From contig CAISEB010000009.1 of assembly GCA_903884235.1 (NCBI GenBank), positions 1-64,000 on the forward strand: a stretch of 64,000 nt of DNA, written 5' to 3'. Numbering within the stretch: the stretch's first letter is position 1; every line of letters begins with the position of its first letter. Below the pieces are notes generated by a model. That model did not search any database, was not told where the DNA came from, and saw only the letters and a list, made by a program, of their open reading frames with translations. This DNA comes from an uncultured Pseudomonadota bacterium. GTDB lineage: Bacteria > Pseudomonadota > Gammaproteobacteria > Steroidobacterales > Steroidobacteraceae. Shown here in pieces: positions 10,018 through 30,344 of this stretch. Made by a program: the position numbers and the translations under genes.

Positions 10018-10623
10018 TCAGCGCCACGGCTGCTCGAGCTCCCAGAGGATCGGCTCCAGGCTCCGGGCCACGTGCACCCCCGCGCCCACGTGCCGGAAGC
10101 CCAGCCGCAGGCGCCGCCGGTACCAGTCCGCGGTGCGCAGGTGCACCGTCCGGTCGGTGCGCGACTGGTCGGCGGCCTGCGCCCAGTCGCGGCGGGTCAG
10201 CACGCTCAGGTACAGCGCGCCCCGCGACAGGCGCGCGAGGTTGCGGATCGCGCGCGCGGCGGTCGCATCCTCGAGGTACTGCAGCACGTCGTGGCACACG
10301 ACGAGGTCGTACGGCACCTTCGGTGCATAGTCCGCGAGCGAGCCCTCGATCCAGCCGTGACGGCGACACAGGTAGGCGCTGTATTCGAGGCCGTCGTAGC
10401 GGGCCTTCGGAAAGTGCGCAAGGAGCGGCTCCCTCAGCATCCCGACGCCGCAGCCCGCGTCGAGGATCCGCCGCACGGGCAGTTCCACGTAGCGCACGAT
10501 CCCCGCGATCAGGCCGGCAACGCGCTCGGCATCCCCGGTGTCGGCGACGCGCGTCGCGGGGTCGCCGTAGAAGCGTTCGAAGAACGCCTCGTCGAAATCG
10601 GCCGGCTTGCGGCGCATGGGCAT
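10018..10623 (-). CDS. Class I SAM-dependent methyltransferase
   Basis: About 201 residues. Motif I is ILDAGCGVGMLREPLL, followed by DGLEYSAYLCRRHGW (acidic ribose-binding loop) and YDLVVCHDVLQYLED, the pattern of small-molecule methyltransferases of the Methyltransf_11/25 type. The substrate cannot be predicted. ATG 10623 and ATG 10617 are both plausible starts and neither has a clear Shine-Dalgarno; a GTG at 10665 would add 14 poorly conserved-looking residues. The gene is 12 bases or more downstream of the large regulator on the same strand and could be read with it. Confidence 0.8.
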   Translation of the reverse strand: MPMRRKPADFDEAFFERFYGDPATRVADTGDAERVAGLIAGIVRYVELPVRRILDAGCGVGMLREPLLAHFPKARYDGLEYSAYLCRRHGWIEGSLADYAPKVPYDLVVCHDVLQYLEDATAARAIRNLARLSRGALYLSVLTRRDWAQAADQSRTDRTVHLRTADWYRRRLRLGFRHVGAGVHVARSLEPILWELEQPWR

Positions 10624-15367: not shown

Positions 15368-15376
15368 GCGTCGACG

Positions 15377-16573
15377 CTACGGCAGGCGATGCACGACATA
15401 GCGATCCAGGTACGATCGCAACTGGTCGCGGTGTGCCGCGCGATAGGCCGCGTAGTCCTTCGCGATGCCCGCGTCCGGCGCACTGACCAGCACGTACGGC
15501 TCGAGCATGCCGTCGTCGTCGAGCCGCGCGAGGTCGCCATAGTCCTTCGTGTGTCCGGCCTCGCCGCCGGCCACGACGCGCGCCATCTTGAGCGCCGTGA
15601 CCTCCTCCGCCAGTGAGTGCCGGTACGTGGCCTCGCTGGGGTAGGCCTCCTTGAACTTCGACTGCCGCCACAGGCCGCGCGACGCCGAGTACGCGAGCCA
15701 CGCCGCGCCGCTGTGTGCCAACGACTTCGGGTCCACCGAGATCGTCATTCCGCCCTTGTCGTCGACGTCGACGGAATCACGCGGCGCGGGGATCGTGGGC
15801 GGCTTGATCTCGATGTGCAGGGCCTTGGCCCACTGCGCGAGCCCCGCCCAGGCCCGGCGCGAGTAGGGCTCGGCGACGATGGCGTCGAGGAGGTGCCCGT
15901 AGGCGGCGCCGGCCTGGCCGTGGCGCGCGAGCGCATCGCCCCAGTAGCGATGCGCGGTCTCCCGGTCGGGGTCGATCGCGACCGCCTTGCCATACCACTC
16001 GGCGGCACGCGCGAGGTCGTCGCGCTTGAAGTAGACGTCGCCGGCGTACAGGCGGGCGTCGTAGTCGCGCGGGTTCGCCTCGGCGATGCGCAGGTACAGC
16101 GCGAGCGCCGCGTCGAAGTCGCCGCGCGCGAAGGCCGTCTCGGCCTGCGCCATCATGGGGTCGGCGATGATGGCAGCCCCGACCGGCAGTGGCTCGGCGA
16201 CGTGCTCGAAGACGACCTGCAGCAGGCTGCTGGTGTCGCCGAGCGCGCGGGCGCGCTCGGCCGCCGACCGCTCGCGAGCAAAGGCCGCGTCGCGCTCGGC
16301 GCCCGGGGGCATCGTCTGCACGGCGGTCATCAGGCATATCGCCGCGCGCTCGGCATAGCGGACGTCTTCCGGGACGCGCGCCGTCAGCCGCTCGTAAAGC
16401 GGAAGCGCGCCGAGCGCATTGCCCGCGTCGTAGAGCGCGTCGGCCTCACGCGCTTCGGCCTCGGTGTTGGCAGGGGCGGTGGTGGCCGCCGGCTCCGCGG
16501 CGGCGGCCCCGGACGGGGCGCCGGCGAGCAGCGTGGCGACGAGGGCGGTCCCGAGGGCAGCGTGGAGTGTCAT
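15377..16573 (-). CDS. Secreted TPR-repeat protein
   Basis: 398 residues with a signal peptide (LHAALGTALVATLLAGAPSGAAAA). Several tetratricopeptide repeats cover residues about 40-240 (DALYDAGNALGALPLYERL, TAFARGDFDAALALYLRIAE, ARAAEWYGKAVAIDPDRETAHRYWGDALARHG). The C-terminal 150 residues form a separate alpha-helical domain (AWLAYSASRGLWRQSKFKEAYP) that I cannot name. Probably a periplasmic scaffold; partners unknown. GGAGG lies six to eight bases upstream of ATG 16573. Convergent with the FAD oxidoreductase gene (9-base gap) and divergent from the beta-lactamase-like gene. Confidence 0.8.
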   Translation of the reverse strand: MTLHAALGTALVATLLAGAPSGAAAAEPAATTAPANTEAEAREADALYDAGNALGALPLYERLTARVPEDVRYAERAAICLMTAVQTMPPGAERDAAFARERSAAERARALGDTSSLLQVVFEHVAEPLPVGAAIIADPMMAQAETAFARGDFDAALALYLRIAEANPRDYDARLYAGDVYFKRDDLARAAEWYGKAVAIDPDRETAHRYWGDALARHGQAGAAYGHLLDAIVAEPYSRRAWAGLAQWAKALHIEIKPPTIPAPRDSVDVDDKGGMTISVDPKSLAHSGAAWLAYSASRGLWRQSKFKEAYPSEATYRHSLAEEVTALKMARVVAGGEAGHTKDYGDLARLDDDGMLEPYVLVSAPDAGIAKDYAAYRAAHRDQLRSYLDRYVVHRLP

Positions 16574-16658
16574 GGCCGATCCTCCCTGAGCGGATGGCCC
16601 ACGACATCACAGATCGGCGCGACGGGATAGTGGGGATCGCGTCGGGTACCATCCCGCC

Positions 16659-17807
16659 ATGACCACCCCCGACACCGACACCGACGCCCGCGCACGGCAC
16701 GTGCGCACGTTGTACGCCGGCAAGCTGCTGCCGGACGCCGTTGCCGCCACGCTGATGGCGGGCCACACCCTGTTCCCGTCGGCGACGGTCGCCTGCGCCG
16801 CGTTCCCCGGCGACCTGCCCCGCGCGGCGACGCCGCTCACCGACGTCGATCTCGTCGTCGGCGGTCGCCGCTACGATCTCGTCGACTACCTCGCCTACAA
16901 CCGGGTCGCCGGCCTGCTGGTGCTCGCCGACGGCGCGATCGCCCGGGAGGACTACCAGCTCGGCCTCGATCCCGGCGCACGCTGGGCGTCGTTCTCGCTC
17001 GCCAAGTCGGTTTGCTCGACGCTGTATGGCGCCGCGCTCGCGGACGGCGTGCTCGGCGACCTCGACGAGCGGGTCACGAAGTACCTGCCGGCGCTGCACG
17101 CCGGCGCCTACCGCGACGTGTCGCTGCGACAGATCCTCGAAATGTCCTCCGGCGTCGCCTGGGACGAGACGTACACGGACCCGCGCTCCGAGCGGCGGCG
17201 TTTCCTCGACCTGCAGCTCGAGGGCAGGCCGGGCAGCCTCACCGGCATGATGGCCGCACTGCCGCGCGCCATGCCCGCCGGCGGCGGTTTCAACTACAGC
17301 ACCGGCGAGACGTTCCTCGCCGGCGCCGTGCTCGAGGCCGCGCTCGGCCGGCCGCTCGCGCAATACCTCTCCGAGCGGTTGTGGGTGCCGGCGGGCATGC
17401 AGTCGAGCGCGGCCTGGTGGCTCGAGTCGCCGGGCGGCACGGCGATCGGCGGCAGTGGGTTGTCCGCGACGCTGCGCGATTACGCGCGCTTCGCGCGCTT
17501 CGTGCTCGAGGACGGCTGCATCGGCGCGCGCCGCATCGTCCGGGACGGATGGTTTGCGGAGTCGACGGCGCGCACGACGACCCTGGGCACGCCGCGCGAC
17601 TATGGCTACCAGTGGTGGCTACCCGACCGGGCCGACCCCGTGCACGCGGGAGCGTTCCTCGCGATGGGGATCTTCGGCCAGCGGATCTACCTGAACCCGG
17701 CGCGCCGGCTCGCGATCGTCGCGCTGTGCGCGCGTCCGAAGCCCTCCGACGCGCACGTCGTCGAGGACCTCGCGTTCTTCGGCGCGGTGGCCCGCGCGCT
17801 CGGCTGA
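16659..17807 (+). CDS. Serine hydrolase, class C beta-lactamase/penicillin-binding-protein family
   Basis: 382 residues. The nucleophile motif is S113-L-A-K116 in WASFSLAKS, and the second motif is YST in GFNYSTGE near residue 213. HAGAFLAMGIFGQ near residue 328 takes the place of the K/H-T-G triad. No export signal is obvious: the N-terminus is TDTDARARHV. The enzyme may therefore be a cytoplasmic esterase or peptidase rather than a resistance enzyme. Substrate unknown. It stands alone, divergent from the TPR gene and convergent with the prenyltransferase gene, one base apart. Confidence 0.83.
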   Translation: MTTPDTDTDARARHVRTLYAGKLLPDAVAATLMAGHTLFPSATVACAAFPGDLPRAATPLTDVDLVVGGRRYDLVDYLAYNRVAGLLVLADGAIAREDYQLGLDPGARWASFSLAKSVCSTLYGAALADGVLGDLDERVTKYLPALHAGAYRDVSLRQILEMSSGVAWDETYTDPRSERRRFLDLQLEGRPGSLTGMMAALPRAMPAGGGFNYSTGETFLAGAVLEAALGRPLAQYLSERLWVPAGMQSSAAWWLESPGGTAIGGSGLSATLRDYARFARFVLEDGCIGARRIVRDGWFAESTARTTTLGTPRDYGYQWWLPDRADPVHAGAFLAMGIFGQRIYLNPARRLAIVALCARPKPSDAHVVEDLAFFGAVARALG

Positions 17808-17808
17808 C

Positions 17809-18780
17809 TCAGCGCAGCAGTGCCGCGGCGACGAGCGCGAGGCTGCCCATCGCGTGGATGCCGAGCGTCATCTCGATCGACTGGCGCAGCTGGGCGCGGC
17901 GAGCGGGATCGAGGCTGATGCCGGCGGCCGCGCGCAGGCCGCCCGCGCCGAGCAGCAGCACGGGCACGGCGGCCCACCAGGGCAGCGCGCGCGCGAGGAC
18001 GAGCGCGAGGCCGGCCGCGAGCGCCACCGCCGTCAGAAGCCTGTAGAGGACGCGCGTGCCAGCCTCACCGAGTCGCACCGCGAGCGTGCGCTTGCCGGCC
18101 CCGGCGTCCGCGACCGAATCCGGCACCTCGTTGATCAGCAGGATCAGGCTGACCCACACGGCGACCATCGTGCCGAGCAGCCAGGCCGCCGCATCGACGC
18201 GCCCGGCCTGCAGCCATGCGGCACCCGCGACCGGCAGCAGGCCGAGGCCGATCGCACAGGCGAATTCGCCGGTGCCGCGCCCCGACAGCTGCACCCCGGG
18301 CTGCGAATAGAACAGCCCGAGCGCGAGGCCGCCGAGCCCGAGCAGCAAGACGCCGCTGCCACGCAGCATCGTCAGCCACAGGCCGAACGCGAACGCGCCG
18401 ACGGTGAACGCGATCGCGAGCCTGAGCATCTGCTCGCGGCTGAGGATCCCGTTCTGGATGAAGCGCGAGCCGCCGGTGTACGGGTAGATGCGCCCGGTAT
18501 TGGCGGGATCCGTGCCGTTCAGGTCGTCGCCGACGTCGTTGTACACGTTGGTCGCGGCGTGGGCGCACACCGTCGCGAGCAGCGCGAGCGTGAAGGTGAG
18601 GCCGTTGAAGGCGCGATCCGCGGCGCCCGCCCAGGCCGTGCCGACGAGTACCGGCAGCACGGAGGCGGTGAAGAACTTCGGTCGCGAGGCCAGGAAGCCC
18701 CGGCGCAGCGTGGCGAGGACGCCGCTGCCCCCGAGTTCCGCTGGCGAAGGACCATCCGAAACCCGGGTTGCACGTTCCAT
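17809..18780 (-). CDS. UbiA-family prenyltransferase, MenA-like
   Basis: 323 residues, integral inner-membrane protein with about eight or nine hydrophobic segments. The first Asp-rich motif is N78VYND82VGDD86. The second is NEVPDSVADAGAGKRTLAV, which binds the prenyl diphosphate through Mg2+. The pattern NVYND...TGGSRFIQNG is closest to 1,4-dihydroxy-2-naphthoate polyprenyltransferase (MenA), which makes demethylmenaquinone, though other aromatic acceptors are possible. No other men genes are in the window. It begins 12 bases after the mtrB-like stop and is therefore probably the last gene of the multihaem cytochrome operon. Confidence 0.83.
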   Translation of the reverse strand: MERATRVSDGPSPAELGGSGVLATLRRGFLASRPKFFTASVLPVLVGTAWAGAADRAFNGLTFTLALLATVCAHAATNVYNDVGDDLNGTDPANTGRIYPYTGGSRFIQNGILSREQMLRLAIAFTVGAFAFGLWLTMLRGSGVLLLGLGGLALGLFYSQPGVQLSGRGTGEFACAIGLGLLPVAGAAWLQAGRVDAAAWLLGTMVAVWVSLILLINEVPDSVADAGAGKRTLAVRLGEAGTRVLYRLLTAVALAAGLALVLARALPWWAAVPVLLLGAGGLRAAAGISLDPARRAQLRQSIEMTLGIHAMGSLALVAAALLR

Positions 18781-18792
18781 GTGGGTGACGAC

Positions 18793-20895
18793 CTACTGCG
18801 AGGCGGTTCCCCCGAACCGGTAGCCGAAGCTTACGCCGAAAATGCTCGTGTTGTGGCTGCCGGAATCGGCGCCCAGCGCGAGCAGGTTCAGGGCCGTCGC
18901 GGGACCGACGCCGTCGAGCGCCCAGTCGTAGGCCGAGTAGTTCTCGTACACGTACCGGAACTTGACCGACAGTCGCTCGGTGGCGGCGCAGCCGAGCGTG
19001 ACCTTGGCGTTGTTGAACCGCGTCTGCAGGTCGGGGTACCCGGCCAGCGCGCCGATCAGGCCGACGCTGGTCTCGCCGACCGACTTCGCCTGCGCGAGGT
19101 CGATGCCGAGGCTGCACTTCTCGCCCGTGTACTTCGTGCCGGCGCCGACGTTCACGAAGCGGTCCGTGATCGAGGCGTCCCAGATCGCGGAGCTTGTACT
19201 GTACGCGCCCGCCTGCTTGGTCTCGCGGGTCTGCCAGCCGCCATCGACGTAGAACTGCCACTGTTCGCTGGGCACGAACGTCACGGTCGCCGCACCACGG
19301 CGCTCGCGACCGTTCAGCAGCCCGAGCACCGAGCGACCGTAGCGGTCGTTGGTGACGGAACCCTGCAGCGCGAGCGAGAACTTGTCGCTCATCGCCCAGT
19401 GCGCGTCGAGATCGCCGAAGTCGCGGTCCCGGTTCGCGAGGTTGTACATCGCGACGCGCGGATCCTGGCCGACCGGCAGGTAGGTCAGGTCGACGCCACG
19501 GGCCTCCTTGTGGGCCGCACCGCCCTTGGCGACGATCGTGATGCCGAAGCCCGGCGTCCACTTCAGGCGGCCGTAGGTACGGCCGTCCTCGGTGTGCTGC
19601 ACGAGCTGCTGCTCGCGGTTGATCTCCACGCGATCGCCGGCGATTCCGAGGGTCACCGACTTCAGCAGGCGCACGTCCACGCCGCCATCGACGCGGATGC
19701 GCCTGAAGTTGAAGCGCGGCGTCACGACGGTCGGTCCCGGCGCGATGTCGGTCAGGAACTGCTCGAGCGCGAGCGCGTTGCCGAGGTCCTCGCGATTGTC
19801 GTACGCGACCCGGCCGTGCGCGTTGACGCGCGACCACGGATGCGAGCCGAGCGTCAGGGCGTAGTGCGAGAGCCGGACGTCGCCGTCGAAGCCGGTGGCC
19901 GGCGGGGTTGCATCCGGCAGCGTGTTGACGGGGAGCAGCGCCGAATCGTTCTTGATCGTCGTCGTGCCCACGGCGAGCGAGGCGCTCGAGTTGAACGGCA
20001 GCGCGGCACTGAACGTGAAGTTCCAGCTGCGCGCGTCGTTCTCGGGCGCGCCCGAGAGTGCGCCGGTGGCGGGACCGTTCAGGTACTCCGCCAATGGCAG
20101 GTACGGGTTCATGAACGTCAGCACCGGCTGGTCGTTCCTGAACTTCGAATCCGCCGCGGACAGGCGCCACGCCATGCCGTTGCCGGCCCAGGAGGCGCCG
20201 ACCTCGAAGGTCTCGGTCTTGAAGTCGACCGGCGCGGCGAGCTGCATCGCCTGGGTCATGAACGCAGCGCCGACGATCTGGTTGCCGGTCTTGTCCTGGC
20301 GATCGAAGGACGCGAACAGGGTCAGCCCGTGGCCGGGCATCCAGCGCCCTGCGAGACCGTAGCTCTTGCGCAGCGTGCCGATGCGCACCGGGTTGAGCGC
20401 GGCCGACAGGTCGGTCATGCCGGCCGTCGAGCCCGCCTGCACCCAGCCGTCCGGCAGCGTCTGCACCGCACCGCCGCTGAACGGCGTCGCCGTCGTGTCG
20501 TAGCGGCGGTTCGGCTGGCCGTCGTAGGTGAGCGCGACGTCGAAGTGCCCGTAGCGGCCGAACTTGATCGCGCCGGAGCGCGAATCGAGCCCGAGGTCGT
20601 TGAGCGCGTAGGTCGCGAACGAGCCGTCGTCCTTGACGTAGGCGCCGCGGGCGCCGGCGTCGAGGTCGGCGCCTTCGCGATCGATGCCGGTGTAGCGACC
20701 GGAGGCGGCGTTCGCACCCGTCGCGTAGATCACGCCGGCGTTGACCTCGCCCTGGTAGCCCTTGTCGAACGGGCAGGCGGAGCACGTCCACTCGCTCGTG
20801 TCCGGCGGGGCTGCAACCTCGCCGGCGAGGGCCTGTGCGGATGCCGCGGCGAGGACCGAGGCGATGGAGAACTTCATCATTTGACGCGGTGTCAT
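18793..20895 (-). CDS. mtrB: MtrB/PioB family decahaem-associated outer-membrane beta-barrel protein
   Basis: 700 residues, normal family length. A signal peptide (SIASVLAAASAQALA) is followed by the CXXC motif of the family (WTCSACPFD, about residue 38). Alternating beta strands rich in Tyr, Asn, Asp and Arg then cover the rest, ending GVSFGYRFGG. MtrB forms a 26-strand porin that sheathes the periplasmic decahaem cytochrome and lets electrons cross the outer membrane. GGGAG lies seven bases before ATG 20895. It follows the mtrA-like gene by 13 bases in the same operon. Confidence 0.9.
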   Translation of the reverse strand: MTPRQMMKFSIASVLAAASAQALAGEVAAPPDTSEWTCSACPFDKGYQGEVNAGVIYATGANAASGRYTGIDREGADLDAGARGAYVKDDGSFATYALNDLGLDSRSGAIKFGRYGHFDVALTYDGQPNRRYDTTATPFSGGAVQTLPDGWVQAGSTAGMTDLSAALNPVRIGTLRKSYGLAGRWMPGHGLTLFASFDRQDKTGNQIVGAAFMTQAMQLAAPVDFKTETFEVGASWAGNGMAWRLSAADSKFRNDQPVLTFMNPYLPLAEYLNGPATGALSGAPENDARSWNFTFSAALPFNSSASLAVGTTTIKNDSALLPVNTLPDATPPATGFDGDVRLSHYALTLGSHPWSRVNAHGRVAYDNREDLGNALALEQFLTDIAPGPTVVTPRFNFRRIRVDGGVDVRLLKSVTLGIAGDRVEINREQQLVQHTEDGRTYGRLKWTPGFGITIVAKGGAAHKEARGVDLTYLPVGQDPRVAMYNLANRDRDFGDLDAHWAMSDKFSLALQGSVTNDRYGRSVLGLLNGRERRGAATVTFVPSEQWQFYVDGGWQTRETKQAGAYSTSSAIWDASITDRFVNVGAGTKYTGEKCSLGIDLAQAKSVGETSVGLIGALAGYPDLQTRFNNAKVTLGCAATERLSVKFRYVYENYSAYDWALDGVGPATALNLLALGADSGSHNTSIFGVSFGYRFGGTASQ

Positions 20896-20908
20896 GTCGG
20901 GCTCCCGA

Positions 20909-21886
20909 TCAGCGCATCAGCTTCGAACCGGAGGGATGGTTCGAGCCATGCACCTTCGAGTGGCAATTCGTGCAGCTACCGGCGAGCAGGAAGGCACCAC
21001 GCTGGGTACCGCCGCCACCGGGAAGGCCGTCCGGCGTGTAGGACACCGCGGGGTGTCCCTGCACTTCGTGGCACTCCTGGCAGAGGAACGGCGCGCGGGT
21101 CTTCAGCATCGCGGGCTGCGTGGAACCGTGCGGCTGGTGGCAGTTCGCGCAGTCCTCGGCGACCGGCTGGTGCTCCCACAGGAACGGCCCACGGTACTCC
21201 GCGTGACAGGTCGTGCAGGTCTCGTTGACCGAGTCCTTCTTCAGCATCGACGGGCCCGTCGAGCCGTGCGGCGCGTGGCAGCTGCTGCAGGCCATCTTGC
21301 CCTCGCGCATCGGGTGGTGCGACGGCTTCATCGCATCGGAGGCGCGCGTCTGGTGGCAGCTGGTGCAGACCTCGGTCTGGGTCGCGACATCGCGGACCGG
21401 ATCCTTCGGCTGGTGAAGCTTGTGGCAGTCGGAGCATGCCACGTCGTTGTTGGCGTGCGCGTTGCCGGCCCAGTGCGCCGCATTCTTGCGGTGGCACGCG
21501 AGGCAGGTCTCGTTCTGCTCGGCTTTCGGGGTCAGGGCCTTCTTGCCGTACTGGATCAGGTGCGGCCGGTTCTTGCCCTTGCCGTTGGCATGCGCGTCAC
21601 CCGGGCCGTGGCACGCCTCGCACTGCAACTGGCCATGGCCGAACGGTCCCGCATCGTTGGACGGCCGGCCGTGGGCCGTCTTGAAGATGCCGATCACGGC
21701 ATCCTCGGTGTGGCAGTCCAGGCACGTGTCGGCGCCCGCCTTGGAGTACGCGCTGTGGGCAGGCGCGGCTGGCAGGGCGGCGCCTTCGGCGGCGCCGGCC
21801 GGCGTCGACCCGAACACGCTGAACGCGGCCAGGCACGCAGCGAGCGCCCAGTCACGCAGTCGAGCAGTCGGTTGATGGTCGCACAT
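20909..21886 (-). CDS. mtrA: DmsE/MtrA-type periplasmic decahaem c-type cytochrome
   Basis: 325 residues with a signal peptide (LAACLAAFSVFGSTPAGA) and exactly ten CXXCH haem sites: CLDCH, CEACH, CLACH, CSDCH, CTSCH, CSSCH, CTTCH, CANCH, CQECH, CTNCH. Length and count match MtrA of Shewanella (about 333 residues, ten haems), which sits inside the MtrB barrel as an electron wire. The spacing repeat HAPHGSTGPSML...HQPHGSTQPAML reflects the internal duplication of this family. The gene lies between an OmcA/MtrC-type gene and mtrB in one operon. Maturation would need Ccm genes elsewhere. Confidence 0.93.
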   Translation of the reverse strand: MCDHQPTARLRDWALAACLAAFSVFGSTPAGAAEGAALPAAPAHSAYSKAGADTCLDCHTEDAVIGIFKTAHGRPSNDAGPFGHGQLQCEACHGPGDAHANGKGKNRPHLIQYGKKALTPKAEQNETCLACHRKNAAHWAGNAHANNDVACSDCHKLHQPKDPVRDVATQTEVCTSCHQTRASDAMKPSHHPMREGKMACSSCHAPHGSTGPSMLKKDSVNETCTTCHAEYRGPFLWEHQPVAEDCANCHQPHGSTQPAMLKTRAPFLCQECHEVQGHPAVSYTPDGLPGGGGTQRGAFLLAGSCTNCHSKVHGSNHPSGSKLMR

Positions 21887-21942
21887 CGGAAGCCTCTACT
21901 TCTGTTCTGTTCTGGTCCGTTCCGTCTCGGGTCCTGCGTGCC

Positions 21943-21967
21943 GGCGACGGTTCCCGAGCCCGTCGCC
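21943..21967 (-). other. Intercistronic hairpin between the second surface cytochrome and mtrA
   Basis: Perfect 8-base arms GGCGACGG and CCGTCGCC with a nine-base loop, 20 bases after the cytochrome stop. No T tract follows on the minus strand. It could be an RNA-processing or stability element, or a weak terminator. Confidence 0.4.
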
Positions 21968-21986
21968 GCACGTCAGCAGTCCTGCA

Positions 21987-24488
21987 TCAGTTGTACTTGA
22001 ACGTATCCACCTGGTGCACGACCTTCACGTCCGCCGTGGTTCCGGGGCCGTGGCAGACATCGCACGTCTCGGTCTGGTACTGCGGCTTGGTCATGCCCTT
22101 CGCATCCTTGATGTACAGAGGCGAGGCGGACAGGACGTTCGGGGCCATGTACTGCAGGCCGGCCGGGAACTGGTCGGTGATCACGACCGCCCCGTTCTGC
22201 TTCATGTGCGTCTGCGCCGTCTTGTCGACGTGGCAGGAGCCGCACGCGCCGGCATTGGCCGTGATCGCGATGTGCTGCGCCGGGTTGTCGGCGCCGGCGA
22301 GCAGCGTGTTGCTGACCGCCCCGGCGTCGATCGAGGTCGCGGCCACCTTGGTCGGGTCGACCGGGTAGTACGTGTCCTTCTTGTGGCATCCGAGGCAGTT
22401 GTTCAGCACGCCCGGGAAGCCGAGGTCGGTGAAGTCCAGCGTGCCGTACTTGTAGGTCGCCGAGTGGATGCCGTGGATGAAGTACTTGAAGTCCACCGGT
22501 TCCGTGCCGGTCGAGCCGTTGGTGCCGGTGCGCGGCGCCTGGGCCGGGTTGTGGCACATCACGCACAGCTTCGTATTGTCGGAGCGTGCACCGCCATGGA
22601 AGGCGAACGTCTTGTGGCAGCGCAGGCAGTTCGCGGTGTCGACGACGTCGCGGCGGGCGACGGCCGTGGCGTCCGTGATCGGGAAGAACACCGGCTCCGC
22701 CGCCGTGATCGGGATCGGCTGCAGGTTCGGCGCCTCGTCGGGATCGGCGATGTTCATGATCGCGCGGCCTTCCATCGACACGCCGCCGGAGCCGCCATTG
22801 ACGATCGAGGCGTACGTCGCCGGGATCGGCCGTGCCGAGATCAGCGTGTAGGTTCCATCGCTGTTCTGCGCGGGCGGCGCGAACGTGTAGGTGCCGTCCG
22901 CCTGCTTGGTCGCCGGCAGGAAGTCGATCATCTGCGCCTGCGTCGCCGAGCTGCCGGTGTTGGCGCCCGGGTTCGTGTAGTTCAGCGTCGAGTACCCGAT
23001 GCGGGCTCGGATGCGCGCCGTGGTCGCGCTCGCGGATGCCGGCGGGTAGAAGTAGTTCGCGAACGGCGCATCGAGCAGCCCGTAGGCGCTGCCATCCGTC
23101 GGGTTCGTGAGCTTGATCGTGACCTTCAGGAACTCGCCCGGATTGACCTGGCAGCCGGCCACGTTGACCGCGCACGAGGTCGCCCCGGCGACACTGCCAT
23201 CCGCCGAGCCCACGCCCTCGACCCGCACGACCGTCATCCGGAACGTGGCCTGCAGGTTCTGCAGCGGGATCTGGTGGCGCGCGACGACCTGCCAGTCACC
23301 CTGGTTCACGGTCGCATTCGGGCCGTGGCAGGTGACGCAGTCGGCATCGGTCACCGGCTGGTTGGTCGGGCCATGGCCCGCGCCGGTCGTGAAATTCACG
23401 TCGTCATGGCACGCACCGCAGGCGGCGGCGTTCGGGTTGTTCTTGTAGTTGTCCGCATCGGGCGTCAGCGGATCGGACGCGTTGTGGCAGGTGACGCAGT
23501 TGCGGGTGTCCTGCGGCCAGACGACGTCGTTGAAGTTGCTGATCGCGCCGCCGTAGCCCCAGATCGTGTAGCCCACGCCCTGCGCGGGTGCGGTGCTACC
23601 GGCCGCGACGACGGTCGGCATCGTCGCGCCGCGGTGGATCTTGTGGATCATCACCTTGAAGTCGAGCGTGTTGCCGGACTGCGCGTCGGTATTGCCGGGG
23701 TTGTGGCAGATCACGCAGTAGGCGGGATCGTTGCGGGCACCGCCGTGCAGCGCGAGCTGTGCGTGGCAGGCGTCGCACTCCTTGTTGCCGACGATGTCGC
23801 GCGTCACGAGGTTCGTGGTCGCGCCCGTCTGGGGCAACCACGTGTAGACGCCGTTGTTGATGCCGTTGTTCGAGGCGCTGGGGCCGGTGCCGCGCAGCTC
23901 GAGGCCGACGCGATGCGTCAGCGTCGGATCGTAGACGGCGGCGGGACCGGTCGCATCGGCGACCGTGTAGGAACCGAGCGCTTGGGAGAACTTGTAGCTG
24001 TAGGTGCCATCGCCGTTGTCGACGAAGACGCCGCCGGCGGTGCTGGCGACCTCGGCGGTCGGCTGGCGCGTCTGCACCGTCCCCCAGCCCTGCCCGGCGA
24101 CCGGGTTGTCGACCGTGTTGATGTAGGACTGCCAGGCGCTCGAGGTGCCGTTGTTGCCCGGGACGAGCTTGGCGATCGCGAAGCGGACCTGGGCGGCCTG
24201 CAGACCGTACAGCGGATTGCCGGCCTCGCTGACGAGGTTGAAGTAGATCGTCGGCGTCTCGCCGCCGGTCACGCCGGTGATCTGCGCCGTGATGCTCTTG
24301 GCGATGGTGATGTTGCGGGCGAGTGGCGATCCACCCGGTCCCGTCGAGCCGGAGCCGCCCGGGGGACCTGCCGGTCCCGCCGCGCCGCTGCCGCCGCCTC
24401 CGCAGCCCGCCAGCATCACCCCCGCCAGCAGCGAGAGCATGAGAGCGGCCAGCGCCTGGCCCCGAATCGCCTTAGTCATCGCGAACAT
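21987..24488 (-). CDS. OmcA/MtrC-family decahaem outer-membrane lipoprotein cytochrome
   Basis: 833 residues. The lipoprotein signal ends in the lipobox LAGC, followed by a short Gly-X-Y stretch. The N-terminal beta domain (residues about 50-230) is followed by five haem sites (CDACH, CVICH, CVTCH, CGACH, CVTCH), a second beta domain, and five more (CLRCH, CVMCH, CLGCH, CGSCH, CDVCH), ten in total. This split pentahaem-beta-pentahaem plan is that of MtrC/OmcA, the cell-surface reductases of iron and manganese oxides, flavins and electrodes. It is longer than MtrC (about 670) and OmcA (about 735). Substrate here unknown. Close paralogue of the upstream gene. ATG 24488 or ATG 24479 could be the start. 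Confidence 0.92.
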   Translation of the reverse strand: MFAMTKAIRGQALAALMLSLLAGVMLAGCGGGGSGAAGPAGPPGGSGSTGPGGSPLARNITIAKSITAQITGVTGGETPTIYFNLVSEAGNPLYGLQAAQVRFAIAKLVPGNNGTSSAWQSYINTVDNPVAGQGWGTVQTRQPTAEVASTAGGVFVDNGDGTYSYKFSQALGSYTVADATGPAAVYDPTLTHRVGLELRGTGPSASNNGINNGVYTWLPQTGATTNLVTRDIVGNKECDACHAQLALHGGARNDPAYCVICHNPGNTDAQSGNTLDFKVMIHKIHRGATMPTVVAAGSTAPAQGVGYTIWGYGGAISNFNDVVWPQDTRNCVTCHNASDPLTPDADNYKNNPNAAACGACHDDVNFTTGAGHGPTNQPVTDADCVTCHGPNATVNQGDWQVVARHQIPLQNLQATFRMTVVRVEGVGSADGSVAGATSCAVNVAGCQVNPGEFLKVTIKLTNPTDGSAYGLLDAPFANYFYPPASASATTARIRARIGYSTLNYTNPGANTGSSATQAQMIDFLPATKQADGTYTFAPPAQNSDGTYTLISARPIPATYASIVNGGSGGVSMEGRAIMNIADPDEAPNLQPIPITAAEPVFFPITDATAVARRDVVDTANCLRCHKTFAFHGGARSDNTKLCVMCHNPAQAPRTGTNGSTGTEPVDFKYFIHGIHSATYKYGTLDFTDLGFPGVLNNCLGCHKKDTYYPVDPTKVAATSIDAGAVSNTLLAGADNPAQHIAITANAGACGSCHVDKTAQTHMKQNGAVVITDQFPAGLQYMAPNVLSASPLYIKDAKGMTKPQYQTETCDVCHGPGTTADVKVVHQVDTFKYN

Positions 24489-24514
24489 GGTTCGCTCCTC
24501 GTTCGGTCCGTCGT

Positions 24515-24538
24515 GGCCCGGCGCGTCTGCGCCGGGCC
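24515..24538. terminator. Perfect GC-rich hairpin between the two surface cytochrome genes
   Basis: Ten-base arms GGCCCGGCGC and GCGCCGGGCC around the loop GTCT. A T-rich tract (TTTCTCGTT) follows on the plus strand only. Both flanking genes read on the minus strand, where the hairpin comes 17 bases after the upstream stop (24556) and 26 bases before the next ATG (24488). It is therefore best viewed as an attenuating or stabilising intercistronic structure rather than a standard terminator. Confidence 0.5.
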
Positions 24539-24555
24539 TTTCTCGTTGCGTAGGA

Positions 24556-27372
24556 TCAGTTGTACTTGAACGATGCGACGCTATGGACGACCTTCACGTC
24601 CGCCGTCGCGCCCGGTCCGTGGCACACGCCGCAGGACTCGGTCTGGTACTGCGGCAGCGTCGAGCCGCCGATCGCCTTGATGTGCGGCGCGCCGGTCACG
24701 AAGGTGTTCGGCTGTCCGAAGCCGAGCCCGAGGATGCCGGTGCCACCGGTGTTGATGATGTCGCTGACGACCGTCGCACCCTGCTGCTTCATGTGGTTCT
24801 GGGCCGTCGAGTCGACGTGGCACGCGCCGCAGGCCGCCGCGTTGGCGGTGATCGCGTAGTGCTGGGTCGGATCGTCGTAGCCCTGGAACCGCGTGGTGCT
24901 GTAGGTCTGGCCCGGATCGATGGTCGTGCTGAACACGGCCGCCGGATCCACCGGATAGTAGGTGTCGGTCTTGTGGCAGCCGAGGCAGTTGTTGAGCTTG
25001 CCCGGGAAGCCCACCTCGGTCATGTCGACGACACCAGCCTTGTAGTTCGCCGAGTGGATGCCGTGGATGAAGAACTTGAAGTCCACCGGTTCCGAGCCCG
25101 ACGATCCGACGGCCGCGCCGTTGGCCTGCACGCGCGGCGCTTGCGCCGGGTTGTGGCACATCACGCAGAACTGCACGTTGTTGACCCGACTGCCGTGGGC
25201 CACGAGCTTCTTGTGGCAGCGCAGGCAGTTGTTGTAGTCGACGACCTGGCGCCGCGCGACCGGTGTCGCGTCCGTGATCGGGAAGTACACGGGATCCGCG
25301 ACCTGGATCGGCACGTTCGTCGCGTAGATCGCCGGGCTCGAGCCCGAGACCAGCGCCGGGGTCGTGCCGACGTCGGCGACGCCGACCAGGTTGAGCGCCG
25401 CCTGGGCACCGATCGCGCCGGAGCCGCCGACCAGCGCGCGCTCGGAAGCGAGCGGCACCGGGTACGGGAAACGCGCGGTCAGCGTGGTCTTGTCGGCGCT
25501 GACGATCACGGCCGGGATCGACGGGATCACCGAGCTCGAGGTGTTCGTCGCCACGGTCTTCGGGGCCGGCTTCGTCTGCGAGGTGCTCGTCGCGCAGGTG
25601 CCGTCGGCCTTGTCGGCCGTGGTGCAGTTGCCGAGGAAGTTGACGGCCTGGGCCTGCACGGTGCCGGAACCGACGATCGCGCCCGGGTTGGTGTAGTTCA
25701 GCGTCGTCCAGCCGGCGCGAGCCGAGATCGCCGTCTTGTAGGTGCTGAACGGCGGCGCGGTCAGGTCGTACTTCGCGTTGCCGTTGGTCGGGTCGGTGAC
25801 GGTGATCGACACGCGCGGGTAGAAGCCCGGGTGCACCGTGCAGATCACGTTGGCGCCCGCTGCGGCGGCCGCGATCTTGGCGGCACAGGCCGTCTCGACG
25901 GTGTCGACGCCGCCGACGATGGAGATCGCCTCGACGCGCACGATGTTGAGCTTGTACTGCGCCATGTTGCTCTGCACGGCGATGTTGTGCGCCGTGACGG
26001 TGTCGACCTTGCCGCCGCCGACAGCCGCGGTGCCGGTGGTCCCGGCGGCGTGGCAACCCGCGTTCATGCAGGTCGCGTCGGCCTGGGCGACGGTCGTGAG
26101 CGCGCTGCCACCGCCGATCGCCGTGTTCGTGTGCGCGACCATGTCCATCGTGTCGTGGCAGGCGCCGCAGGTGCGCGTGTACGCGAAGTCAGCGTAGTTG
26201 TGCGCATCCGGCGTGCCGGCATCGGCCGGGTTGTGGCAGGTCGTGCAGTTGCGGATGTCCTGCGGGAACACCACGTCGTTGAACGTGCCGGCCGTGGAAC
26301 TCGAGCCGAAGATCGCGAAACCCGCGCCGGGGATGGCGGGCATCGCCGAGGCGAGCGTGCCGGCCGGCTGGGTCGCGAGCCAGGCCTTGACGCTCGGCAG
26401 GTTCGAGCCGGCGTGGATCTTGTGGATCATGAAGCGCAGGTCGACGACGTTGCCCGAACCGGAATCCGTGGAGCCGCCGTTGTGGCAGAGCACGCAGTAC
26501 TGGACGTCGTTGCGGGCGCCACCATGCATCTCGAGGCGCGCATGGCAGGCGTCGCACTCCTTGAGGCTGACGACTTCGCGCGTGTAGAGCGGTGTCCCGG
26601 CGGCGGCGGCGGCCGCGACCGTCATGCCGTCGGAGGGGCGATACGTGTACACGGCGTTGCCCGTGCCGTTGTTCGAGCCGCTCGGCGCGGCGGCGGTCGC
26701 CGGGCCCGTGCCGCGCAGCTCGAGGCCGACGCGATGCGTCAGCGTGCCGTCGTAGGCGAGCGGGACACCCGTCGCGCCGGTCGCGGCGGTGGAGCCGTCG
26801 GCGTTCGTCGGGCCGGCATTCGAGGACGTCGCGGCGAAGTCGGTGAGCGACTTGCTGAACTTGAACGTGTAGGTACCGTCGCCGTTGTCGACGAAGGTGG
26901 TGCCGGCCACGCTCGCCTTCTGCGTCGTGCCCTGCACCGTCGGGACCTGCGGCCAGCCGTCCGCGGCCGGCGCGGCCGAGGGGACGACCCGGGTGACGTA
27001 GTTGCGCCACTCACTGGACCAGCCGGAGCCCGCGACCGGCGGCTTCAGCTGGCCGAGCGCGAAGCTGACCGTCGATGCCTTGAGGCCCTTGAGGGGGTTG
27101 CCGTTCTCGTCGACCAGCTTGAACGAGATCGTCGGCCAGTCGCCGGCGGTGACGTTGGTGATCGTCGGCGTGACGGTCTTCGCGACCGAAATGTCGAGTG
27201 CGAGGACCGGGCCCGAGGGGCCAGTCGAGCCACCGGGACCCTGGGGTCCGGTTGGGCCTGCGGGGCCCGCTGCGCCATCCTTGCCACCGGAGCAACCGGC
27301 GATCATGGCGACGGCGAACAACGCCCATACACAACCGAGAATTCGTGTTCCCCAGCTGCTGCTCACGTTCAT
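24556..27372 (-). CDS. OmcA/MtrC-family multihaem outer-membrane lipoprotein cytochrome with one CX4CH site
   Basis: 938 residues, first gene of the operon. Lipobox IAGC is followed by a Gly-X-Y run (GAAGPAGPTGPQGP). Haem sites in order are CDACH, CVLCH, CTTCH, CGACH, then C435MNAGCH, then CLRCH, CVMCH, CLGCH, CGACH, CGVCH: nine standard sites plus one CX4CH where the paralogue has CVTCH. Domain order is the same beta-pentahaem-beta-pentahaem plan. The protein is probably exposed on the cell surface and passes electrons to or from minerals, humics or other cells. GAGAGGAC lies directly before ATG 27372. The two paralogues share long segments around the C-terminal haems (FFIHGIHSANYKAG, LNNCLGCHKTDTYYPVDP), indicating a tandem duplication. 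Confidence 0.92.
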   Translation of the reverse strand: MNVSSSWGTRILGCVWALFAVAMIAGCSGGKDGAAGPAGPTGPQGPGGSTGPSGPVLALDISVAKTVTPTITNVTAGDWPTISFKLVDENGNPLKGLKASTVSFALGQLKPPVAGSGWSSEWRNYVTRVVPSAAPAADGWPQVPTVQGTTQKASVAGTTFVDNGDGTYTFKFSKSLTDFAATSSNAGPTNADGSTAATGATGVPLAYDGTLTHRVGLELRGTGPATAAAPSGSNNGTGNAVYTYRPSDGMTVAAAAAAGTPLYTREVVSLKECDACHARLEMHGGARNDVQYCVLCHNGGSTDSGSGNVVDLRFMIHKIHAGSNLPSVKAWLATQPAGTLASAMPAIPGAGFAIFGSSSTAGTFNDVVFPQDIRNCTTCHNPADAGTPDAHNYADFAYTRTCGACHDTMDMVAHTNTAIGGGSALTTVAQADATCMNAGCHAAGTTGTAAVGGGKVDTVTAHNIAVQSNMAQYKLNIVRVEAISIVGGVDTVETACAAKIAAAAAGANVICTVHPGFYPRVSITVTDPTNGNAKYDLTAPPFSTYKTAISARAGWTTLNYTNPGAIVGSGTVQAQAVNFLGNCTTADKADGTCATSTSQTKPAPKTVATNTSSSVIPSIPAVIVSADKTTLTARFPYPVPLASERALVGGSGAIGAQAALNLVGVADVGTTPALVSGSSPAIYATNVPIQVADPVYFPITDATPVARRQVVDYNNCLRCHKKLVAHGSRVNNVQFCVMCHNPAQAPRVQANGAAVGSSGSEPVDFKFFIHGIHSANYKAGVVDMTEVGFPGKLNNCLGCHKTDTYYPVDPAAVFSTTIDPGQTYSTTRFQGYDDPTQHYAITANAAACGACHVDSTAQNHMKQQGATVVSDIINTGGTGILGLGFGQPNTFVTGAPHIKAIGGSTLPQYQTESCGVCHGPGATADVKVVHSVASFKYN

Positions 27373-27395
27373 GTCCTCTCTCCCGAAAGACAGTG

Positions 27396-27416
27396 GGTAA
27401 CGTTTGTTGCGTTACC
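27396..27416. promoter_or_regulatory. Inverted repeat upstream of the multihaem cytochrome operon
   Basis: Perfect arms GGTAACG and CGTTACC with a seven-base centre, 23 bases before the first ATG of the operon. It is either an operator overlapping the promoter or a hairpin in the mRNA leader. Confidence 0.5.
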
Positions 27417-27420
27417 GCTA

Positions 27421-27445
27421 TTTCGCTTTTCTGGCGGTGGCGAAA
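27421..27445. promoter_or_regulatory. Second dyad upstream of the multihaem cytochrome operon
   Basis: Arms TTTCGC and GCGAAA separated by 13 bases, directly next to the GGTAACG repeat. The arms are short, but the position beside a stronger dyad makes a compound control region plausible. Confidence 0.3.
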
Positions 27446-27891
27446 GATGCTCTCGTCGCCAGGCTTTGGCAGTAGCGGAATACCCCTAGAACCGATTCAC
27501 GGACTTGCAGCTTTTCCTTGTGGTGGATTGGACACGAGTCCAGTGCCTCAGCAGAATTCCCGGAACGTTTCGGACTGTACCGATGCACGCTAACCCGGCC
27601 AGACCCGGCTCCGGAGTTCGGCAGCGCACGTAGGGGCCCGTTTGCGCGCTTCGAGCGGGCATATCGGGTGTTTCGCCTGCACGACCCGAATTGAGGGACC
27701 GCGATGCGACACCCAGTTGCGGCAAGCCCGCCCCTGCCAAAGCGGCGGTCGGCCAGTCGGTAGATACCTAGTCCGATTTCGAGCGGGCTGGGCTCGGCGT
27801 GGTTGGAACGGATTCCAATCGGTGGCCTGGCGCTCCGCATGCGCTGATCCCTCGCCCGGCGAGCGCGAGCCCGACCGCTGTCGCAGGCCTC
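27446..27891. other. 446-base stretch without a recognisable gene
   Basis: This stretch lies between the cytochrome operon and the GNAT gene. Base composition is less GC-rich than the flanks. Short open frames exist on both strands, but none has a ribosome binding site together with a protein-like sequence. It should hold the promoter of the cytochrome operon. I found no tRNA, small-RNA or sigma-54 pattern that I would defend. Confidence 0.6.
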
Positions 27892-28461
27892 TCAGGGTCG
27901 GACGGCCTTGACCCAGTCGCAGATCACGAGGTCCCAGACCTGGCCCTCGTACCGCAACGAACCGCAGGTCTCGAAGCCCGCACGCCGGTGTGCCGCCAGC
28001 GACCGGACGTTCTCGCGCGCGATGTCGGTGATCACGCAGTCGTAGTCAGGTGCGAATTCCGCGCGCATGCGTCCGTAGAGCCCGGCCAAGATCCCCCTGC
28101 CGCGGTGGCTCTTCGCAACGCAGACCGCGGCACAGACGAGAGAGCGGCGCGCCGAGAGGGCGCGGCCGTCGACGATGGCCGCGTCGATCGATTCGAACAA
28201 GCCCCCGAGCGAGGACGCAAGCGACCGCGCGGCGGGCGTCGCGACGAGCGCGTAGCCGACCACTGCAGCGCCGTCCACGGCGACGACAGCCGGCGCGTGC
28301 CGATGCAGTTCCTCGAGGAACCCGGGCGTGTACTCGGATGTCAGGAAGCCTTCGCGCGTCCGTTCCCCAGGCGGCAGGTGGCGGCCGAGGTTCGCCGCCT
28401 GCAAGGCCTGAATCCCGGCGAGCTCGGTCGGGTCGCTCACGCGCTTGAGGATCGTCGCCAT
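27892..28461 (-). CDS. GNAT family N-acetyltransferase
   Basis: 189 residues. The acetyl-CoA-binding segment is CVAKSHRGRGILAGLYGRMR near residue 115, followed by DCVITDIARENVRSLAAHRRAGFE, the standard GNAT motifs A and B. Substrate unknown. GGAG lies five bases before ATG 28461. The gene starts 47 bases after the glmS stop on the same strand, so it may be a distal member of the glmU-glmS transcript, but no functional link is known. Confidence 0.85.
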   Translation of the reverse strand: MATILKRVSDPTELAGIQALQAANLGRHLPPGERTREGFLTSEYTPGFLEELHRHAPAVVAVDGAAVVGYALVATPAARSLASSLGGLFESIDAAIVDGRALSARRSLVCAAVCVAKSHRGRGILAGLYGRMRAEFAPDYDCVITDIARENVRSLAAHRRAGFETCGSLRYEGQVWDLVICDWVKAVRP

Positions 28462-28508
28462 GCTGGCTCCGTCGCAGGGTTCGCCGCCCGGCTCGGGCGC
28501 GCGTCGCG

Positions 28509-30344
28509 CTACTCGACGGTGACGCTCTTGGCGAGGTTGCGCGGCTGGTCGACGTCCGTGCCGCGCATCGTCGCCACGTGGTAGGCGAGCAGCTGCAGCG
28601 GCACCGTGTAGACGATCGGCGCCTGGAACTGGGCGACATGCCGCGGCATCGTGATCACGTGCACGCCGTCCGACTCCTCGATCCCGGAATCCGGGTCCGC
28701 GAACACGTACAGCTCGCCGCCGCGTGCGCGCACCTCCTGCAGGTTCGACTTGAGCTTCTCGAGCAGGTCGTTGTTCGGCGCGACTGCGATGACCGGCATG
28801 TCGGCATCGACGAGCGCGAGCGGGCCGTGCTTGAGCTCGCCCGCGGCATACGCCTCGGCGTGGATGTAGGAGATCTCCTTCAGCTTCAGCGCCCCTTCCA
28901 TCGCCACCGGCGCGAGCGCACCCCGTCCGAGGAACAGCGCGTGGCGCTTGTCGACGAACTTCGCCGCGAGCGCGCGCACCTCGGCGTCGAGCGCGAGCGT
29001 CTCCTCGACGAGGCGCGGGGTGCCGGTCAGCAGGTCGACGAGTTCGTGCTCCGCCGCGCGATCGAGACCGTGGTGCTTGCCGAGCGCGATGACCAGCATG
29101 CCGAGCGCGGCGAGCTGGGTCGTGAACGCCTTGGTCGAGGCGACGCCGATCTCCGGGCCCGCGCGGGTCAGCATCACGAGCTCGGACTCGCGCACCAGCG
29201 AGGATTCCGGGACGTTGCAGATGGCGAGCGTCGACAGGTAGCCGGAGCGCTTCGCCTGGCGCAGCGCGGCGAGCGTGTCGGCGGTCTCGCCGGACTGCGA
29301 GATCGACACGAACAGCGTGTTCTTGGGGACGACCGGGTTGCGGTAGCGGAACTCGCTCGCGATGTCGACCCAGCACGGCAGGCGGCACACCTGCTCGACG
29401 AAGTAGCGCGCGACGGAGCCGGCGTGCCAGCTGGTGCCGCAGGCGACGATCTGCACGGCCTCGGTGCGCGCGAGCACCTCGGATGCCAGCGGCCCGAACG
29501 CGGCTTCCAGCAGCTTGCCGCCCGCCACGCGCTCCTCGAGCGTCTGCGCGATCGCGCGCGGCTGCTCGTGGATCTCCTTGAGCATGTAGTGGGCGTAGTC
29601 GCCCTTCTCGACGGCGTCCGCGGACAGTTCGCTCTCGCGCAGCGCCCGCTCGACGGGGCGGCCCTCGGCATCGGCGATCCTGACGCCTTCGCGCGAGATC
29701 GCCGCGACGTCGCCCTCCTCCAGGAACTGGAACGTGCGCGTCACGGGCAGCAGCGCCGAGACGTCCGAGGCGACGAAGTTCTCGCCCTGGCCGCGACCGA
29801 TCACGACCGGGCAGCCGGCGCGCGCGACGACGATGAGATCCGGGTCACGCTCGCTGACGACGGCGAGCGCGTACGCGCCGTGCAGCTCGCGCACTGTCGC
29901 CTGCACCGCCCCATACAGGTCGGCGCCACGACGGAGGTGGAAGTGCACGCGATGGGCGATGACTTCGGTGTCGGTCTCGGAAGTGAACTCGTATCCGGCC
30001 GCGACGAGCTCCGTGCGCAGCGCCTCGTGGTTCTCGATGATGCCGTTGTGCACGATCGCGATGCCGTCATGCGAAACGTGCGGATGGGCGTTGCGTTCGC
30101 TCGGCACGCCATGCGTCGCCCAGCGCGTGTGCGCGATGCCGAGGTGACCGGAGGCCGGCGTCGCGGCGAGCGCCTCGGTCAGGCGCACGACCTTGCCGAC
30201 GGTGCGCAGGCGGCGCATGTGCCCGCTGGCGTCCAGCAGCGCGACGCCGGCGGAGTCATAGCCGCGGTACTCGAGCCGCTGCAGGCCCTCGATCAGCACC
30301 GGGAGCACGTCCCGGTCCGCCACCGCCCCGACGATTCCACACAT
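28509..30344 (-). CDS. glmS: Glutamine-fructose-6-phosphate aminotransferase (isomerizing)
   Basis: 611 residues, normal length. Cys2 in MCGIVGAV is the glutaminase nucleophile of the N-terminal Ntn-hydrolase domain (to about residue 240), with AHTRWATHG. Two SIS sugar-isomerase domains follow ([14 protein letters not shown] and [29 protein letters not shown]), and the sequence ends in the conserved [11 protein letters not shown]. It makes glucosamine-6-phosphate for peptidoglycan and LPS. It follows glmU by 32 bases, the usual gammaproteobacterial order. GAGGAGA lies before the ATG. Confidence 0.97.

Follow-up and report, generated by a model that had tools for sequence, protein, structure and literature searches.

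We examined a stretch of 64,000 nucleotides (the window, on contig C9 of the host genome) from an uncultured bacterium of the Steroidobacteraceae. On its minus strand, five genes in close succession encode the predicted parts of an MtrCAB-type outer-membrane electron conduit together with a prenyltransferase. The host genome is called G000 below, and other G numbers are the genomes compared with it. The predicted products of the five genes are as follows.

24556-27372, minus strand: OMC1, an OmcA/MtrC-family surface lipoprotein of 938 amino acids with nine CXXCH motifs and one CX4CH motif
21987-24488, minus strand: OMC2, an OmcA/MtrC-family surface decahaem lipoprotein of 833 amino acids with ten CXXCH motifs
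20909-21886, minus strand: an MtrA/DmsE-family periplasmic decahaem cytochrome of 325 amino acids with ten CXXCH motifs and no long N-terminal extension
18793-20895, minus strand: an MtrB/PioB-family outer-membrane barrel of 700 amino acids with an N-terminal CXXC
17809-18780, minus strand: a UbiA-superfamily (MenA-like) prenyltransferase of 323 amino acids, directly after MtrB

An earlier sequence-only reading of the window had described five minus-strand genes in tight order, and our frames and coordinates confirm this arrangement. All five frames are open, and the gaps between them are 67, 100, 13 and 12 bp, counted from OMC1 to the prenyltransferase. Homologues of mtrC, mtrA and mtrB all lie in this cluster. 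Between positions 17300 and 28600, neither promoter-like sites (1 versus 0.4 in shuffles, standard deviation 0.7) nor terminator-like sites (6 versus 4.7, standard deviation 2.3) were found above chance.

We recounted the haem motifs and obtained 9 CXXCH in OMC1, 10 in OMC2 and 10 in MtrA, in agreement with the earlier tally of 10, 10, and 9 plus one variant. In 1000 residue shuffles of each protein, the maximum number of CXXCH motifs was 2 for MtrA and 1 for each surface cytochrome. The tenth site of OMC1 is CMNAGCH (CX4CH) at residue 435. OMC1 is most likely a decahaem protein too, because this CX4CH site is kept in all three orthologues read (G005, G006 and G009). Haem motifs larger than CxxCH are on record (PMC7399161).

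Family models and structure matches agree with these counts. OMC1 and OMC2 are 47% identical to each other, both carry an N-terminal lipobox, and both exceed the cut-off of TIGR03507 (382 and 478 bits, cut-off 209); they are predicted surface-anchored MtrC/OmcA lipoproteins, as the sequence-only reading had proposed. MtrA, whose first haem motif lies at residue 55 of 325, is over the cut-off of TIGR03508, a model named DmsE (294 bits, cut-off 192). MtrB is over the cut-off of TIGR03509 (285 bits, cut-off 240) and has CSAC at residue 38, so the ten-haem MtrA/DmsE-type protein and the MtrB/PioB protein with its CXXC motif also held up. Using phmmer, we found near full-length matches of MtrA to 6r2q_A (E 9.6e-83, residues 36-325) and of MtrB to 6r2q_B (E 4.4e-40, residues 17-693). 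OMC2 matched the OmcA structure 4lmh (E 1.4e-43) and also 6r2q_C, which is annotated as OmcA/MtrC family, while the matches of OMC1 among solved structures were MtrF, UndA and OmcA. We take 6r2q to be the structure of the MtrCAB complex; the search output labels its chain A "cystathionine beta-synthase", which is misleading, and its chain B "uncharacterized protein".

Every feature of an MtrCAB system that can be tested on sequence was found at this locus, which upholds the earlier proposal of a complete MtrC-MtrA-MtrB set, here in a deep-branching gammaproteobacterium. We put the probability that the operon encodes an MtrCAB-type outer-membrane electron conduit of a known kind at about 0.6, a figure that covers the whole explanation, including the inner-membrane end described next.

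As the sequence-only reading had noted, no inner-membrane quinol dehydrogenase is visible in the window: a search of the host genome for the NapC family gave matches on contigs C25 and C11 only. The gene on C25 encodes a NapC/NirT tetrahaem protein (C25:41993-42508, E 3.6e-73; 199 amino acids, four CXXCH) that scores 282 bits against the NapC/NirT subfamily model TIGR02161, below its cut-off of 310.6. It adjoins a monohaem cytochrome c gene, and the same pair occurs in G005 and G009. The first haem motif reads CXXCHXM in all five strong copies of the NapC family (G000, G005, G006, G009 and G010). This methionine is reported from NrfH, some NapC proteins and ImoA, and not from CymA; the same source describes Sideroxydans ES-1 as having no menaquinone genes and an ImoA paired with the monohaem PmcA, and reports that ImoA is able to act in the outward direction in Shewanella (PMC13390432). 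NapC-family and MtrB-family matches occur in the same 7 of the 15 genomes of the host genus, and the other 8 have neither (Fisher p 1.6e-4, kinship ignored). Five of the seven NapC-family matches are strong, and those in G001 and G012 are weak. The inner end of the conduit is probably this NapC/NirT tetrahaem quinone oxidoreductase together with the small monohaem cytochrome. A role of the NapC protein as part of a nitrate reductase was considered and set aside: no molybdoenzyme was seen in the 13 of 14 genes scanned in the 16 kb around it, with no genome-wide search for NapA.

The quinone that would serve this protein was approached through marker enzymes. MqnA/MqnD (PF02621) had no match in the 15 genus genomes, while 4 of 14 control genomes had matches; MenD was over its cut-off in none of the 15 versus 7 of the 14 controls. 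Sub-cut-off MenD matches are present in all 15 genus genomes, and their length suggests other thiamine-diphosphate enzymes. The host has a second MenA-like gene on contig C18 (L154:4758-5612) that is over the MenA cut-off, at 110.9 bits, though no menaquinone pathway was found. Because no such pathway was found, the conduit would be wired to ubiquinone; for ubiquinone synthesis we looked at UbiA-family matches only.

The host genome is a 4.12 Mb draft in 59 contigs, 95.1% complete and 0.15% contaminated. Its 16S rRNA gene is 86.4% identical to that of Methylomagnum (the best among the matches listed, with one further record in the 90-95% band), 84.8% to E. coli and 83-84% to Ramlibacter, and on these identities the host is a deep gammaproteobacterium. 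The 16S of G009 is 99.3% like the host's, yet GlmS and MtrB of the two genomes are only 82% and 47% alike; one of the two 16S sequences may have been binned wrongly. Two further sets of host genes bear on the role of the conduit.

Contig C20, L206:9835-18284 and L207:2909-8369: photosynthesis gene cluster, models over cut-off
Contig C24, L164:4006-11813: form-I Calvin operon with cbbX, models over cut-off

The photosynthesis genes over cut-off are bchC, bchX, bchY, bchZ, bchP, bchG, bchE (anaerobic cyclase), pufL, pufM and pufC (tetrahaem); bchL, N, B, D, H, I and M lay outside this check. The Calvin operon runs from the RuBisCO large subunit through the small subunit, CbbX, fructose-bisphosphatase, phosphoribulokinase and phosphoglycolate phosphatase to aldolase, with a divergent LysR regulator. 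In it cbbL, cbbX, fructose-bisphosphatase, phosphoribulokinase and aldolase are over cut-off, and cbbS is also present. In its gene content the host is a purple-type phototroph that also carries Calvin-cycle genes. We rejected contamination as an origin of the photosynthesis genes, given the contamination value of the host genome and the presence of a reaction centre and RuBisCO on a single contig in G010, a separate genome of 10 contigs. Within the genus, the RuBisCO large subunit was found in four of the seven MtrB-bearing genomes (G000, G006, G010 and G012) and in 0 of the 8 others (p 0.026), and type-II reaction-centre genes were found in three of the seven (G000, G010 and G012) and 0 of the 8 others (p 0.077).

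We searched 60 genomes for the MtrB family, the host genome and the other members of its genus (n = 15 with the host) included. Matches were found in 18 of the 60 at E up to 1e-3, with 16 over cut-off. The seven in the genus are G000, G001, G005, G006, G009, G010 and G012, the last being a weak match to a fragment on a 4.5-kb contig (E 6.3e-4); the remaining eight genomes have none. The order OMC1-OMC2-MtrA-MtrB is retained in G005, G006 and G009, and G001 has two OMC2-like cytochromes followed by MtrA and MtrB. MtrB-family frames at L054 (G010), L053 (G029) and L052 (G031) are 944-1022 codons long, versus 702-740 in the other full-length matches, and the long frame of G010 (L054) directly adjoins a NapC gene.

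A tree of MtrA was built from 37 rows, 16 from the G-numbered genomes and 21 from the named loci L007-L030, of which 20 out of 24 are represented; the filter on length and haem motifs left no frame for the other four (L009, L013, L028 and L030). The host protein groups with those of G006 and G005 (99/96), then with G009 (100/97), G001 (98/90) and the same-family G034 (100/98). Most rows of the named betaproteobacterial loci stand apart: 19 of the 21, all except L020 and one of the two L015 MtrA proteins, form a separate starred group. MtrA of G010 falls in a different clade from that of the host. A gain of mtr by the host genome alone was set aside, as the tree groups G000, G005, G006, G009, G001 and G034 with starred support. 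Descent with losses, or an old transfer, fits better, because MtrA of the host groups with its genus members and then with the same-family G034.

In the relatives, the position of the operon corresponds to a variable island framed by glmS on one side and by a methyltransferase gene and three further genes on the other. The neighbouring genes in the window are listed here.

28509-30344, minus strand: glmS, bordering the mtr-bearing variable island on the upstream side
16659-17807, plus strand: PF00144 serine hydrolase, convergent with the last gene of the operon, in an equivalent position in G005 and G006
10024-10617, minus strand: methyltransferase-family gene, in relatives the first gene of a conserved block that borders the island on the opposite side

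In G011, G003 and G008 the methyltransferase gene comes straight after glmS, with gaps of 76, 85 and 94 bp. The mtr operon lies inside the island interval on one contig in G000, G006 and G009; in G005 it adjoins the same right-hand block on a contig that breaks off within OMC1. The island of G010 holds an orthologue of the prenyltransferase with HycI and flavin mononucleotide (FMN)-dehydrogenase genes and no mtr. The same trio lies downstream of glmS in G001, with no mtr beside it, the other border being beyond the stretch read. The islands of G014 and G007 contain a serine-hydrolase gene, those of G002, G004 and G013 span 2.5 to 6.8 kb without any of the marker genes used, and the contig of G012 is too short for its island content to be read. 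The genus offers a natural comparison, with MtrB matches in 7 of 15 genomes, none in 8, and an empty island in three.

These surroundings bear on the fifth gene, which the sequence-only reading had counted, as MenA-like, among the parts of the conduit. It belongs to the UbiA family (Pfam E 3.5e-31) and scores 95.7 bits against the MenA model TIGR00751, below the cut-off of 102.15. There is no support for a function as MenA for menaquinone, because searches for the markers of both known pathways (MqnA/MqnD, and MenD over cut-off) were negative in all 15 genus genomes, and the MenA label could not be kept. The gene directly follows mtrB in three genomes (G000, G005 and G006), and its orthologue is present in five of the seven MtrB-bearing genomes and in 0 of the 8 others, two fragments in G004 being unread (p 0.007, kinship ignored). 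As no orthologue turned up outside the MtrB-bearing genomes, a functional link with the conduit is conceivable. However, its place next to mtrB may simply reflect a shared neighbourhood, because all five orthologues found lie at the glmS island, as far as contigs allow. The idea of a fixed operon member, and with it the claim of a conduit part, is weakened by the mtr operon of G009, in which the gene was not found, by G010 and G001, where the gene sits downstream of glmS without mtr, and by 30 other OMC- or MtrB-bearing loci at which a search did not find it. One could still suppose that the enzyme works within the operon by prenylating a scavenged naphthoquinone precursor into a quinone dedicated to the conduit, a parallel being DmkB in the flavin-based system of Gram-positive bacteria. 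The position after mtrB and the restriction to MtrB-bearing genomes would agree with this, as would the report that Lactiplantibacillus can use exogenous 1,4-dihydroxy-2-naphthoic acid (DHNA) for extracellular electron transfer (PMC9888254). Given the sub-cut-off MenA score, the HycI and FMN-dehydrogenase neighbours in G010 and G001, and the many mtr loci without the gene, we consider such a role unlikely.

From the observed gene content, family membership, synteny, co-occurrence and host repertoire we infer an assembly, its redox contacts, the use of ubiquinone and a direction of flow. MtrA would be threaded into the MtrB barrel, with the two lipid-anchored decahaem cytochromes docked outside MtrAB. 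The monohaem cytochrome would sit in the periplasm between the conduit and the inner membrane, and the NapC/NirT protein would exchange electrons with ubiquinone. Electrons may flow inward, from Fe(II) or another reduced surface through the conduit to the quinone pool, the reaction centre and the Calvin cycle, and we give inward flow of this Fe(II)-uptake type roughly an even chance. It is favoured because no menaquinone genes were found, because the likely partner is ImoA-like and because the host has phototrophic and autotrophic genes. A narrower and more tentative proposal is that a gammaproteobacterial purple phototroph with no known menaquinone pathway uses MtrCAB with surface decahaem cytochromes, and not PioAB, as its electron-uptake arm. 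In that case electrons would pass from Fe(II) or a surface donor to the OMC proteins, MtrAB, the monohaem cytochrome and the ImoA-like protein, and on to the quinone pool, the photosystem and the Calvin cycle, and Mtr would serve as an inward, phototrophic conduit.

Several observations weigh against inward flow, and the direction is not settled by sequence. Four of the seven MtrB-bearing genomes (G001, G005, G006 and G009) have no reaction-centre match, which suggests that the operon is kept without phototrophy, and three of these (G001, G005 and G009) have no RuBisCO either. By itself, the association with the reaction centre does not reach significance (p 0.077). The best-known examples of surface MtrC-type cytochromes come from outward systems. 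The PioA extension is missing from MtrA, and none of the genes called at 14015-30344 was recognised as PioC-like, although small frames could have escaped the calling. The co-occurrence of NapC and MtrB is not that of one orthologous set, because the NapC matches of G001 and G012 and the MtrB fragment of G012 are weak and MtrA of G010 belongs to another clade. Finally, the mtr, photosynthesis, Calvin and NapC genes are each on a separate contig of the host genome, a 59-contig draft at 95% completeness.

The next most likely reading is outward respiration, along the lines of Shewanella or Rhodoferax: the NapC/NirT protein would oxidise ubiquinol, and MtrCAB would pass the electrons out to Mn(IV), chelated Fe(III), humics or another acceptor of high potential. 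Outward or two-way flow is favoured because of the two surface decahaem cytochromes and the four MtrB-bearing relatives with no reaction-centre match; the operon or MtrB matches in genomes without RuBisCO (3 of 7) and the way NapC-family matches track MtrB would fit it as well. Against it, a menaquinone pathway was not found, ubiquinol donates electrons poorly to Fe(III) oxides of low potential, and RuBisCO and reaction-centre matches within the genus are confined to MtrB-bearing members. We regard outward respiration as possible, at odds clearly short of even. The fit of MtrA to the model named DmsE also allows for extracellular respiration of the dimethyl sulphoxide (DMSO) type, with a DmsEF-like MtrAB pair feeding a surface molybdoenzyme. 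This is very improbable: no DmsA- or DmsB-like gene was seen among the called genes at 14015-30344, all of them scanned with Pfam in a scan confined to this interval, and the surface position is taken by the two MtrC/OmcA-type lipoproteins.

Compared with characterised systems, the predicted conduit is closest in its composition to MtrCAB/OmcA of Shewanella, with the same three families: lipoprotein surface decahaem cytochromes, a decahaem MtrA and an MtrB-family barrel. In both, the NapC-type gene is not adjacent to mtr (PMC8805035). Of the CymA/menaquinol pathway of Shewanella, the host has a predicted NapC/NirT tetrahaem protein, encoded on C25, but no menaquinone pathway was found in its genus, and this protein has CXXCHXM, whose methionine is reported to be absent from CymA (PMC13390432). 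The host also differs in its two tandem surface cytochromes, 47% identical, and in its photosynthesis and Calvin genes. The Mto system of Sideroxydans lithotrophicus ES-1 (MtoAB, ImoA, PmcA) resembles it in having MtrA and MtrB homologues, a NapC/NirT protein with CXXCHXM and no menaquinone genes found. A monohaem cytochrome c is the likely partner in both. Unlike the host with its two MtrC/OmcA-type surface cytochromes, ES-1 has none (PMC8805035).

Phototrophic systems offer the other comparison. PioABC of Rhodopseudomonas palustris TIE-1 shares with the host a decahaem cytochrome and an MtrB-family barrel, as well as a type-II reaction centre and Calvin genes (PMC6831781). In contrast to PioAB, which is marked by a PioA N-terminal extension of ~200 residues and no surface decahaem cytochrome, the host operon encodes a 325-residue MtrA without that extension together with surface cytochromes, and no PioC-like gene was recognised beside it. 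Among the phototroph-like Ferrovaceae, one species is reported with a DmsE-MtrB-NapC cluster and no MtrC (PMC13390463). This cluster, of 'Ca. Solisferrum', is like the host in its MtrA/MtrB-type pair, NapC/NirT protein and further cytochrome; it differs in that no MtrC was identified there, whereas the host has surface cytochromes and is a deep gammaproteobacterium.

The sequence-only reading had suggested that a GC-rich gammaproteobacterial host would extend the known range of such conduits. This was not borne out: reports of MtrCAB already cover 148 species in 13 orders, most of them Gamma- and Betaproteobacteria (PMC8805035). As an operon it is unremarkable within a known family; it is the host that is uncommon, by its type of metabolism. 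The host has photosynthesis and Calvin genes, and no menaquinone pathway was found in it. Conservation of PioA-like proteins with extended N termini is described for phototrophs only, and MtrCAB is described from non-phototrophs such as Shewanella (PMC6831781). A genome with MtrCAB, a type-II reaction centre and a Calvin operon cuts across this contrast, and makes the host a concrete system in which to ask why electrons run one way or the other through MtrCAB. The combination of MtrCAB and phototrophy has a precedent, because photoheterotrophs are listed among the carriers (PMC8805035). We found no description of a gammaproteobacterium with MtrCAB, a reaction centre and Calvin genes in a search that did not cover supplements, many subscription journals or preprints, and for that reason the gap is weak evidence of absence.

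Two minor observations concern other parts of the host genome. ARAGORN called a tRNA-like element at 42873-42965 of the window with an undefined four-base anticodon (cgcg), which is probably a false call. Outside the window, the host has a second multihaem cluster.

Contig C11, L063:8333-18452: PCC3-type cluster, recognised by haem counts and HX13H motifs

Its genes encode a 1813-residue protein with 47 CXXCH motifs, a 519-residue protein with 21 haem sites, a 728-residue protein that matches TPR models weakly and probably has a C-terminal barrel (judged by eye), and a 291-residue protein with two HX13H motifs (two or more occurred in 28 of 2000 shuffles). This fits PCC3, for which the description gives median haem-site numbers of 34 and 21 along with an inner-membrane protein of ~300 residues that has two HX13H motifs (PMC5566968). 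Relatives of all three partners lie beside the giant cytochrome gene in G005, G009 and G014. The giant cytochrome itself has matches at E up to 1e-3 in 12 of the 15 genus genomes, whether or not they have MtrB, and in 36 of 98 relatives, where distant matches may reflect general multihaem similarity. Its relatives vary in their number of seven-haem units of ~268 residues, with 54 motifs in G009 and in G014. The PCC3 porin and membrane protein were not found beside the giants of G010 (L146) and G006 (L147) in the stretch read. At L146:4004-16270 (G010), a single frame of 4089 codons has 106 CXXCH motifs, with 12 units between cut points that are 67-94% identical; at L147:6020-16915 (G006), a single frame of 3632 codons has 96, with 10 units that are 60-80% identical. 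The largest number of haem motifs known at the time of the PCC3 description was 85 (PMC5566968), and a later record is 113, from Methanoperedenaceae (PMC7082337).

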